DNA from: Candidatus Nitrotoga fabula | GTDB lineage: Bacteria > Pseudomonadota > Gammaproteobacteria > Burkholderiales > Gallionellaceae | DNA: 64,000 nucleotides | Reading direction: 5' to 3' | NCBI RefSeq assembly: GCF_905221025.1 | Contig: NZ_CAJNBL010000041.1 | Span: 62,001 to 126,000 of the forward strand | Shown: in pieces, positions 60,448 to 64,000 of the stretch | Layout: every line of letters begins with the position of its first letter | How positions within the stretch are numbered: position 1 is the stretch's first letter | The notes under the pieces: model-generated | The model's database searches: none | What the model saw: the letters and a program-made list of their open reading frames with translations, nothing else | What the model was told of the DNA's origin: nothing | Program-made: the position numbers and the translations under genes

Positions 60448-62274
60448 TTGGGCAATATTTTGATAACAGGCTGTCCGCATTCGGGGAACGATGCCGGCAT
60501 GCTTCGCCAGATCATTGCCGGAGCCTGCGTGGAGTCGCCTCATTTGTTGCATGTGCTGCATATACTGCAACAGAAATTTTTGCATGTTTCTGAAACTGCC
60601 ATCCGGGAAGTGTCCGCTATGCTGGCTCTTCCGTACAGTCAGGTGGAGGCTGTGGTGGAGTTCTATTCCTTTTTCCACAAAACCCCGCGTGGAAAATACG
60701 ATATTCTTTTCAGCAACTGTATCTGTTGCGGGTATCTGGTGGACGGGACGGACCTGATGGCAATGTTTGGCCGGCGGCTGGGTATTGTTGCCGGCAGGAC
60801 ACGCGAAGATGGCCTGGTAAGCATGGATCAAACTTCTTGCATCGGGATGTGTGACCATGGGGCGGCATTGCTGGTCAATGGGATGCCTGTTACCGGACTG
60901 GATGGCAGCTTGTTGGAACGCATCGCCATTCTGATTGAAGATCGGGTACCACTGGCAGACTGGCCGTCTGAATGGTTTCAAATTGAAGATTCCATTCGCA
61001 TGAGCGGCATGTTGCTGGATCACGAGATGCCAAGAGGAGACAGCTTGCGTGCGATGCTTGCGTTTGGCGCAGAAGCGAGCCTGAACGAGATTATTCAGTC
61101 GGGTTTGCGTGGTCGTGGTGGTGCAGGGTTCAGCACTGGAATGAAGTGGAAATCCTGCCGTGTAGCTCAGGGTGCCGCGCATTATGTGATATGCAATGCC
61201 GATGAGGGAGAGCCTGGCACATTCAAGGATCGTGTGCTGCTTCATCGCTATGCGGACAGTCTGTTTGAAGGCATGACAGTGTGTGCCTATCTGATTGGAG
61301 CCAATCTGGGTTATCTGTATCTGCGCGGGGAATATCGCTATCTGCTGCCCCATTTGCAATCTGTGTTGCTGCTGCGTCGAGAAACCAGCCTGCTGGGTAC
61401 GAATATCTGCAACCAGCCTGGTTTTAGTTTTGATGTCCAGATCGTAGTCGGAGCTGGAGCCTATATCTGCGGAGAGGAATCGGCGCTCATCGAGTCGCTC
61501 GAGGGGAAACGCGGGATTCCGCGCGTGCGCCCGCCGTTCCCGGTTTCTCATGGTTATCTTGGCCAGCCAACCGTAGTGAACAATGTTGAGACGTTTGTCG
61601 CTGCCGCTTGCGTTGTACAGAAAGGCAGTACCTGGCTCAGAGCAATGGGGGATGAAGTCTCGAAGGGCAGTAAAATCCTGAGTATTAGTGGGAATTGTGC
61701 CAGGCCGGGAATTTATGAATATCCGTTTGGAGTTTCTATACGGCAGGTGCTGGAGGACTGTGGGGCTGCGGATACTTATGCGGTGCAGGTCGGGGGACCT
61801 TCCGGGGTGCTGATTGGCAGCCCGGAATTTGATCGCAGGCTTGGATACGATGATTTGCCCACGGGGGGTGCGGTGATGGTTTTTGACAAATCACGGGATT
61901 TGATGGCGATCCTGGTCAATTTCTCCCGTTTTTTTTCTCATGAGAGCTGTGGTTTCTGCACCCCGTGTCGGGTAGGAACCGTTCTGCTCAGGGACAGACT
62001 GGATAAAATCTTCAGTGGGCGTGGTGCGCAGACTGATCTGGAAGAAATACTGCATACCGCCAGGCTGATGAAGCAATATTCTCATTGCGGTTTGGGACAG
62101 ACCGCGGCGAATCCTGTTCTGGATGGATTGCAGCGTTTTCCGCAGGTGCTGGAGAAGTTTTTGCTGAATCGTGATTTTGAGCCGGATTTGGATCTGGACA
62201 AAGCGCTTGCCGAGGGGCGTCGCATTCGTAAGGGTAACGATGGAATTGCATGCGCCGACCGGGGCGGGCAATGA
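60448..62274 (+). CDS. hoxF: NAD-reducing hydrogenase diaphorase subunit HoxF
   Basis: Flavoprotein subunit of a group 3d NiFe hydrogenase; it carries FMN and Fe-S clusters and binds NAD(H). I take the start as TTG 60448 because GAGG lies 7 bases upstream; ATG 60499 is an alternative. The 608 aa have an N-terminal NuoE-like domain (about 1-160), then the NuoF-like domain with FMN motif GRGGAGFSTGMKWK, ADEGEPGTFKDR, the NAD-site GAGAYICGEESALIESLEGK and 4Fe-4S motif ESCGFCTPCRVG. In the NuoE-like part the second cysteine pair C131/C135 is normal. The first pair region reads SNCICCG, where I would expect C-x4-C, so cluster ligation there is uncertain. Overlaps hoxU by 4 bases. Confidence 0.95.
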   Translation: MGNILITGCPHSGNDAGMLRQIIAGACVESPHLLHVLHILQQKFLHVSETAIREVSAMLALPYSQVEAVVEFYSFFHKTPRGKYDILFSNCICCGYLVDGTDLMAMFGRRLGIVAGRTREDGLVSMDQTSCIGMCDHGAALLVNGMPVTGLDGSLLERIAILIEDRVPLADWPSEWFQIEDSIRMSGMLLDHEMPRGDSLRAMLAFGAEASLNEIIQSGLRGRGGAGFSTGMKWKSCRVAQGAAHYVICNADEGEPGTFKDRVLLHRYADSLFEGMTVCAYLIGANLGYLYLRGEYRYLLPHLQSVLLLRRETSLLGTNICNQPGFSFDVQIVVGAGAYICGEESALIESLEGKRGIPRVRPPFPVSHGYLGQPTVVNNVETFVAAACVVQKGSTWLRAMGDEVSKGSKILSISGNCARPGIYEYPFGVSIRQVLEDCGAADTYAVQVGGPSGVLIGSPEFDRRLGYDDLPTGGAVMVFDKSRDLMAILVNFSRFFSHESCGFCTPCRVGTVLLRDRLDKIFSGRGAQTDLEEILHTARLMKQYSHCGLGQTAANPVLDGLQRFPQVLEKFLLNRDFEPDLDLDKALAEGRRIRKGNDGIACADRGGQ

Positions 62275-63095
62275 TGAAAACGGACAACAGGCAGGATCAG
62301 GCTGCCCGGAATACGATTACGATAGACGGACAGGAAATTCCGTTTCAACACGGGCAAACTATCATCGATGCAGCGCTGGAAGCCGGGATTTACATTCCGC
62401 ATCTGTGTCACCGCTCGGGACTTTCGCCGCATGGGAGTTGCAGGCTTTGCATGGTTGATATTGTCGACCGTAAAGAAACTCTTGGTGATTCTGATCGACG
62501 GAGAGAGGGGAAAATACAGGAGGAGACCCGCAGCAGGAGTGTAGCCGCATGCACTATGCCTGCAACGGCCGGACAGTGGATTCGCAATAACACGCCAGAA
62601 TTGAATGAGGCACGCAAGGTAATTACGCAAATGTTGTTTACAGAAGGGAATCATATCTGCCCATCCTGTGAACATTCTGGGAATTGTACGTTGCAGGCTG
62701 TGGCTTATTATCTGGGAATGCTGGATGGGCATTTCCCGCCATTTTTTCCGCGGCGGGACTTGGATGCTTCGCACCCGACCGTTATGCTTGATCGTGACCG
62801 TTGCATATTGTGCGAGTTGTGCGTACGTGCCAGTCGCGAGGCGGATGGAAAAAATATGTTTGCGATTGCAGGCAGAGGAACCCGCGCCCGTTTAATCGTG
62901 AATTCAGCGAGCGGTATGTTGGCTGACAGCGACATCGAAATGCATGACCTTGCAGTGCATGTGTGTCCGGTAGGTGCGATTCTCATCAAGGAACAAGGCT
63001 ATCGGGTGCCGATTGGACAACGAACATTCGATCTTCACCAGGTCGAAGAAATCGACCTGGGAAAAACCATACCCCCAGAAATGGGGCAGAAATGA
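62271..63095 (+). CDS. hoxU: NAD-reducing hydrogenase diaphorase subunit HoxU
   Basis: Small Fe-S subunit passing electrons between HoxF and the hydrogenase module. ATG 62271 overlaps the hoxF stop. The 274 aa show a 2Fe-2S plant-type domain (C46, C57, C60, C94), the NuoG-type H-x-C-x2-C-x5-C (H128, C130, C133, C139) and a 4Fe-4S motif CILCELC with CPVGAI. Unusually, about 24 extra charged residues (about 66-89, with DSDRRREGKIQEETRSRS) lie between C60 and C94 relative to other HoxU proteins. Overlaps hoxY by 4 bases. Confidence 0.93.
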   Translation: MMKTDNRQDQAARNTITIDGQEIPFQHGQTIIDAALEAGIYIPHLCHRSGLSPHGSCRLCMVDIVDRKETLGDSDRRREGKIQEETRSRSVAACTMPATAGQWIRNNTPELNEARKVITQMLFTEGNHICPSCEHSGNCTLQAVAYYLGMLDGHFPPFFPRRDLDASHPTVMLDRDRCILCELCVRASREADGKNMFAIAGRGTRARLIVNSASGMLADSDIEMHDLAVHVCPVGAILIKEQGYRVPIGQRTFDLHQVEEIDLGKTIPPEMGQK

Positions 63096-63628
63096 CCCGG
63101 ATCAGGATTGCCACCACCTCGTTGGCAGGTTGTTTTGGTTGTCATATGTCCCTGCTTGACATGGATGAACGGCTGGTTTCCATTCTGGAAAAAGCCGAAT
63201 TTGACCGTTCCCCGTTTACCGACATCAAGCATTGTGGCTCTTGCGATATCGGTTTGGTAGAGGGCGGAATATGCAATGAGGAAAACGTTCATGTGCTGCG
63301 CGAGTTTCGCAAGAACTGCAAAATTCTCATCGCGGTGGGAGCCTGTGCGATCAATGGCGGGGTGCCGGCCTTGCGCAACAGCTTTCAGTTACGGGCGTGC
63401 CTGGAAGAGGTTTATTTGCATGGGGAGGGAGTGGAAAATCCACAAATTCCGAATGATGCGGAATTACCATTGCTACTCGATAAGGTGTATCCCATTCACG
63501 AAGTAGTGCAAGTTGATTTCTATCTCCCGGGCTGCCCGCCTTCCGCTGACCAGTTTTTCCGAATGTTCAATGATCTGATATCGGGAAATGAGTTTTCACT
63601 TCCACGCAAGCTGTTGCATTTTGATTAA
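63092..63628 (+). CDS. hoxY: NAD-reducing hydrogenase small subunit HoxY
   Basis: Small subunit of the hydrogenase module; it holds the proximal 4Fe-4S cluster next to the NiFe site of HoxH. The 178 aa from ATG 63092 contain LAGCFGCHMSLLDMDERL (C14, C17), GLVEGGICNEENV, VGACAINGGVPALRN and LPGCPPSAD, the four cysteine regions expected. Length is typical. The partner large subunit hoxH, normally the next gene, is absent: 90 bases downstream glnE ends on the other strand. Confidence 0.95.
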   Translation: MTRIRIATTSLAGCFGCHMSLLDMDERLVSILEKAEFDRSPFTDIKHCGSCDIGLVEGGICNEENVHVLREFRKNCKILIAVGACAINGGVPALRNSFQLRACLEEVYLHGEGVENPQIPNDAELPLLLDKVYPIHEVVQVDFYLPGCPPSADQFFRMFNDLISGNEFSLPRKLLHFD

Positions 63629-63718
63629 ATCTGTTTTTGTATCAGCTCGCACAGAATACCGGAAGTTTCCATGAGGATGACAGAGCACCCGGATCGGCTA
63701 CACTTGCTTTTATTCTTC
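63629..63718. other. 90-base gap where hoxH would be expected
   Basis: After the hoxY stop (63626-63628) there is no start of a large-subunit gene. The only downstream ATG frame on the plus strand runs over glnE antisense and lacks the HoxH N-terminus. No terminator hairpin was seen. Confidence 0.6.
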
Positions 63719-64000
63719 TCAATCCTGCTCCAGCAGTGCTGCCCAGAGCGCAACCACAGGAGTTGTGTCGATTTCTTTCCTGTCGATACGGCAAGGTGAT
63801 TGATTGTTCAGTCGCATTTTGTGCTGCAGGGCGCGCAGGATACGGTAGCAGTTGCTGGCAGCTTCCGCCATTTCCATTTTGATTAGTCCCAGTTCGCCAG
63901 CTATCTTCAACAGCGCCAGATTTCCCTTGTTTACCGTTAGCTTAGGCTGGGTGTGGGCATGGGCAAGTATCAGAAACTGTACTATGAATTCGATGTCCAC
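63719..64000 (-). CDS. glnE: Glutamine synthetase adenylyltransferase GlnE, C-terminal part (cut by window end)
   Basis: Bifunctional enzyme that adenylylates and deadenylylates glutamine synthetase under nitrogen control. The visible 93 residues are the C-terminal end: DIEFIVQFLILAHAHTQPKL, then NLALLKIAGELGLIKMEMAE and YRILRALQHKMRLNNQ. The start lies outside the window. It is convergent with hoxY. Confidence 0.9.
   Translation of the reverse strand: MDIEFIVQFLILAHAHTQPKLTVNKGNLALLKIAGELGLIKMEMAEAASNCYRILRALQHKMRLNNQSPCRIDRKEIDTTPVVALWAALLEQD

Follow-up and report, generated by a model that had tools for sequence, protein, structure and literature searches.

For Candidatus Nitrotoga fabula, the hydrogenase passages of PMC6050957 describe a group 3d hydrogenase with a complete set of genes, those for accessory proteins included. 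The part of PMC10734462 that surveys the Gallionellaceae names HoxFUHY as the commonest hydrogenase type of the family, present in 71% of iron oxidisers and 30% of nitrite oxidisers, and the corresponding passages of PMC9239080 describe small Nitrotoga genomes from lakes as being without NiFe hydrogenase. Excerpts of PMC2674450 report that Synechococcus PCC 6301 and Nostoc PCC 7120 carry their structural hox genes at two or more genomic sites, and separated hox clusters in cyanobacteria are described in excerpts of PMC2674450 and PMC4463661. The stretch analysed here, called the window throughout, comprises 64,000 nucleotides of Candidatus Nitrotoga fabula (contig C41:62001-126000; G, C and L label genomes, contigs and fetched loci, respectively) and carries hoxF, hoxU and hoxY near its right end with no hoxH between hoxY and glnE. 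Its genome, G000, comprises 2,304,384 bases in 44 contigs and is rated as 100% complete and 0.03% contaminated. With high confidence, the window genes belong to an ordinary group 3d hydrogenase, HoxFUYH, which reduces nicotinamide adenine dinucleotide (NAD), has a [NiFe] site and is encoded by an operon that has come apart at the boundary of hoxY and hoxH.

The missing large subunit was located on contig C17 of the same genome. A search of the genome for the NiFe large-subunit family returned one gene at an expectation value (E) of 0.001 or below, as two stretches of one open frame. This gene, hoxH, heads a run at 8419-15231 of C17 in the order hoxH, hoxW, hypA, hypB, short hypF, hypC, hypD and hypE. 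The encoded HoxH carries both CxxC pairs (RLCGIC and DPCLSC), extends past the histidine that ends the 5xf9 chain by 38 residues, a C-terminal tail to be cleaved, and shares 83-85% identity with its counterparts in same-genus relatives with a whole operon. As for HoxF, HoxU and HoxY, its best solved match was PDB entry 5xf9, aligned near full length, which we take to be the group 3d enzyme of Hydrogenophilus thermoluteolus. HypA, HypB, HypC, HypD and HypE scored over their NCBIfam cut-offs, and HoxW was narrowly over the maturation-protease model TIGR00072 (49.6 bits, cut-off 47.45). Because an intact hoxH and the assembly genes lie elsewhere in the same genome, hoxFUY is one half of an ordinary hydrogenase. 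The features concerned are the following, with window coordinates except for hoxH.

C17:8419-9921: hoxH, NiFe large subunit, 500 amino acids
60448..62274, forward strand: hoxF, fused 2Fe-2S thioredoxin-like domain and subunit binding flavin mononucleotide and NAD, 608 amino acids from the listed TTG
62271..63095, forward strand: hoxU, electron-relay subunit, start ATG at 62271, longest open reading frame from 62250
63092..63628, forward strand: hoxY, hydrogenase small subunit, 178 amino acids
63629..63718, no strand: gap between hoxY and glnE, 90 bases, the split point, where same-genus relatives with hoxY have hoxH
63719..64000, reverse strand: 3' end of glnE, a convergent neighbour that runs past the window and is not part of the hydrogenase

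The three hoxFUY genes are real and undamaged, at a level far beyond chance. Its products matched three chains of 5xf9 with no frame break: HoxF matched 5xf9_A (E 8.9e-144; residues 30-598 of 608), HoxU matched 5xf9_B (E 5.5e-68; residues 11-256 of 273, taken from the ATG at 62274) and HoxY matched 5xf9_C (E 6.9e-63; residues 3-178 of 178). Domains above Pfam cut-offs were Complex1_51K, NADH_4Fe-4S and 2Fe-2S_thioredx in HoxF, Oxidored_q6 in HoxY, and a set in HoxU that includes Fer2_4, NADH-G_4Fe-4S_3 and Fer4_15. Cysteines C14, C17, C85 and C148 of HoxY, presumably the cluster-binding ligands, were invariant across 10 aligned sequences. The start of hoxF is uncertain, with an in-frame ATG at 60499 in addition to the listed TTG at 60448. 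A sequence-only reading of the window had described overlaps of 4 bases within the trio, 90 bases to an opposite-strand glnE with no hoxH beside, and a gene set that did not look like a decaying one. All three descriptions held: an ATGA at 62271-62274 holds both the hoxF stop and the hoxU start, another at 63092-63095 holds the hoxU stop and the hoxY start, the gap is as listed above, and a decayed operon was rejected on the open frames and the near-full-length alignment to 5xf9.

The same reading had left two options, that hoxH lies elsewhere or that the trio is a diaphorase-plus-HoxY module with another partner, and had proposed a genome search for hoxH, hoxW and the hyp genes. That search, with its result on C17, bore out the first option and supplied the very finding, an intact hoxH with hyp genes elsewhere, that the reading had named as refuting the second; the second option has no support, and an orphan HoxFUY was rejected. 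If HoxFUY worked as a NAD-linked module of its own, with a non-HoxH partner, that would fit the absence of hoxH from the window locus and the integrity of the trio. Set against this, the genome encodes an intact HoxH, a protease and Hyp proteins, holds no second NiFe large subunit at E of 0.001 or below, and specifies a HoxY that keeps its conserved cysteines and is 76-78% identical to nine HoxY proteins adjoining HoxH. Such a module is thus scarcely credible. Both halves of the HoxFUYH enzyme are present and intact, and are of the same kind as those of the contiguous operons in relatives.

Several observations weigh against a single, complete and ordinary hydrogenase in this genome. The Pfam protease model HycI had no match anywhere in the genome. 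HypF is approximately half length (L003:11645-12817 on G000:C17; 390 amino acids, profile positions 380-739 of 741) and under its cut-off, and a full-length HypF was not found in this genome. The two halves lie on different contigs (C41 and C17). Finally, trees of 33 rows were built in the same way for HoxF+U+Y and for HoxH, and the two differ in support. In the HoxF+U+Y tree, this genome groups with nine Nitrotoga rows at a support of 99.8; the same grouping in the HoxH tree has a weak support of 62, and it was absent from an earlier, quicker FastTree run of HoxH (0.248 and 0.649 for the relevant branches). The two halves probably share a history, which the HoxH tree does not prove. Short, working forms of HypF occur in Cupriavidus. 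The HypF matches of relatives likewise start where hypB ends or close to it, so that a short form may be normal in these bacteria.

Among 19 genomes of Candidatus Nitrotoga searched, HoxY was present in 10 and not found in nine; completeness is only 71, 72 and 83% for three of those nine. In all nine of the other genomes with hoxY, the order hoxF-U-Y-H-W-hypA-hypB-hypF was contiguous on one contig; the contig of G012 ends inside hypF, and the reported hoxF match of G009 carries one internal TGA. In addition, hypC, hypD and hypE were nearby in three of the nine (L070, L073 and L076). The contiguous order is thus the common state in the genus where the genes occur, and the genome of the window departs from it. 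Because all nine keep these genes together, the split probably arose in this lineage, and we infer that the contiguous order is ancestral.

The flanks of the two halves were also compared. An acyl-CoA synthetase/GNAT-like gene (named by eye) lies 3' of hypE in this genome and in two of the three relatives with hypE, directly after hypE in L070 (69% identity over the part on the contig) and approximately 0.5 kilobases (kb) past hypE in L076 (51% identity); in L073 the fetched piece stops at hypE, so that the next gene is outside it. Because this gene follows hypE both here and in relatives, there is a hint that the hoxH half may have kept its place and that hoxFUY may have relocated. On the left flank of the C17 half, ppx, TPR-like and DUF3617-like genes were not found in the ppk loci of 10 relatives, of which L174 is short because its contig ends. 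On the window side, glnE (complete at L005:5719-8424, 901 amino acids) was grouped with yhdP-like and nit1-like genes in all 10 same-genus loci examined. Gene content also varied within the hyp region: three extra genes, by eye encoding a PIN-domain protein, an AAA ATPase and a companion protein, stand between hypF and hypC in L070 (10737-13362; G009:C23), unlike in the genome of the window, where hypF directly adjoins hypC. The start of a different NiFe large subunit, approximately 24% identical to HoxH, was seen near a contig end (L006 / L071; G011:C43:3238-3964) in G011, one of the same-genus genomes that yielded no HoxY.

The separation of hoxY from hoxH was also found elsewhere in the family. 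In a sample of 150 family genomes, searched at a threshold of E of 1e-60 or below, HoxY was present in 103 and HoxH in 105. There were 107 hoxY matches, comprising 87 with a same-strand hoxH within 500 bases, seven with one at 519-854 bases and 13 without. Nine of these 13 were fetched (this genome and eight others); for the other four (G112, G114, G116 and a partial second copy in G170) only the coordinates were used, and none of them was counted as a split. The hoxH gene was clearly in a different place in seven of the 103 genomes with HoxY, this genome included, and judging a hydrogenase from one locus can accordingly mislead. In G055, G090 and G092, hoxY and hoxH are on one contig, approximately 25-30 kb apart and on opposite strands. 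In G081, G094 and G079 they are on different contigs, with at least 4 kb after hoxY free of hoxH, and tens of kilobases before hoxH are free of hoxY in G081 and G094. Both genes are at contig ends in G111, which proves nothing about a split. G055, G090, G092 and G094 belong to one genus (g2), and their splits may derive from one shared event; G081 belongs to g12 and G079 to g15. No HoxH was found at the threshold used in G142, a draft of approximately 270 contigs and 92% completeness, in which the hoxFUY contig (L218; G142:C151) has 7,913 bases and, of the genes sought, carries only hypA and hypB in addition. This is the one genome of the 103 in which hoxFUY may be an orphan, but the assembly could be incomplete. 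In four split family genomes (L205, L206, L208 and L211), the hoxHW-hypAB block adjoins a relative of the acyl-CoA synthetase/GNAT-like gene that is 61-62% identical to the one in the genome of the window.

An apparent split could also arise if the operon were whole in the cell and contigs had been wrongly joined at both ends. The genome is a draft with the halves on different contigs, and the unbroken operons of all nine same-genus relatives with hoxY speak for such an error. However, both break points lie inside contigs, near 125,630 of C41 (148,792 bases) and near 8,400 of C17 (28,349 bases). A reciprocal misjoin normally needs a shared repeat, and the longest exact word common to both junctions has 12 bases. 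The DUF3617-like gene to the left of hoxH was not found in 10 same-genus glnE loci, and three other family members (G055, G090 and G092) have the same split on a single contig. An assembly error is thus very improbable.

A wider set of loci from named genomes was fetched by HoxY, of which the best 80 of at least 571 were examined; it includes members of the genus and family (L077-L080, L082 and L083). In these 80 loci, hoxH lies downstream of hoxY in the same locus in 61, and 19 are without it. The subsequent search for HoxH-like proteins covered 22 genomes, those of the 19 loci and three others, and detected such a protein in all 19. In 11 of the 19 (G021, G024-G027, G030, G032-G034, G036 and G037), the contig runs for 5 kb or more past hoxY, or ahead of hoxH, without the partner; no gap in an unbroken set exceeds 2.4 kb. 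These 11 include Methylococcales, Methylomonas, Thiotrichaceae, Thiomargarita and others. The other eight, which involve contig ends or fragments, were not counted as splits. Loci with hoxFUY, no adjoining hoxH and a HoxH-like protein elsewhere, from Methylococcales, Thiotrichaceae and other groups, include L106, L122, L124, L128, L137, L146 and L155. In L116, from a metagenome-assembled genome titled Desulfuromonas (G023), hoxFUY is close to those of Proteobacteria; the only HoxH-like protein of G023 is 48% identical and stands beside a different small subunit, and the true partner of hoxFUY was not found there. Contamination or a missing piece is a possible reason for this mismatch.

One reading of these splits is that the operon breaks preferentially at the boundary between hoxY and hoxH and that several lineages have undergone this independently (the Nitrotoga type, other genera of its family, Methylococcales, Thiotrichaceae and others), allowing HoxH and its maturation to be controlled separately from HoxFUY. 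We consider this unlikely. If it were true, HoxFUY might perhaps be free at times for NADH chemistry independent of hydrogen (H2). The split between hoxY and hoxH is not named in any title or abstract opening among those listed by the literature searches that bear on it, which is no proof that it is unpublished.

The roles of HoxH, HoxY, HoxU, HoxF, the Hyp proteins and HoxW are established for the family of NAD-reducing hydrogenases. By these roles, the Hyp proteins and HoxW would build and process HoxH, which would then pair with HoxY and convert H2. HoxFU would pass electrons between H2 and NAD, with HoxU as the relay and HoxF reducing NAD, and the products of the two loci would assemble as they do from an intact operon. 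We infer that the two halves are probably expressed together, assembled and active. Since the genes are in two places, at least two transcripts have to be co-ordinated. Searches for a promoter shared by the two halves led nowhere. A sigma-54-like pattern matched only loosely ahead of hoxF and not at all ahead of hoxH. The number of sigma-70-like sites was that of chance in the window (3 found against 3.8 expected) and close to chance at hoxH (2 found against 1.0 expected). Because the hydrogenase gene set is present, the bacterium can probably use or make H2, as has been proposed for published Nitrotoga.

Compared with known systems, the closest solved enzyme is that of 5xf9, with which all four subunits align best and almost end to end. 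It differs from the enzyme encoded here in three respects. The N-terminal, thioredoxin-like domain of HoxF (window approximately 60700-60860) keeps cysteines where the aligned 5xf9 chain is mostly without them, as judged by eye, and these may hold an extra 2Fe-2S cluster. HoxU is 22 residues longer than its 5xf9 counterpart (window approximately 62460-62540), with a stretch of the same length in three of five Nitrotoga relatives aligned and not in the other two. The hox genes are here in two places. The hydrogenase published for Candidatus Nitrotoga fabula is, in the passages of PMC6050957 that describe it, from the same genus and of the same kind; the operon is contiguous in the nine same-genus hoxY genomes examined and split in this one. 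The lack of a detectable HoxY in nine of the 19 same-genus genomes parallels the lake Nitrotoga genomes, as these are portrayed in the relevant part of PMC9239080. In the cyanobacterial clusters, as far as the excerpts cited above describe them, the break falls between hoxEF and hoxUYH, whereas in this genome it falls between hoxY and hoxH. Carriage of the structural genes in one operon is usual for group 3d HoxFUYH enzymes, is not required of them, and is not the arrangement here: the kind of enzyme is already known, and it is the gene order that is rearranged.

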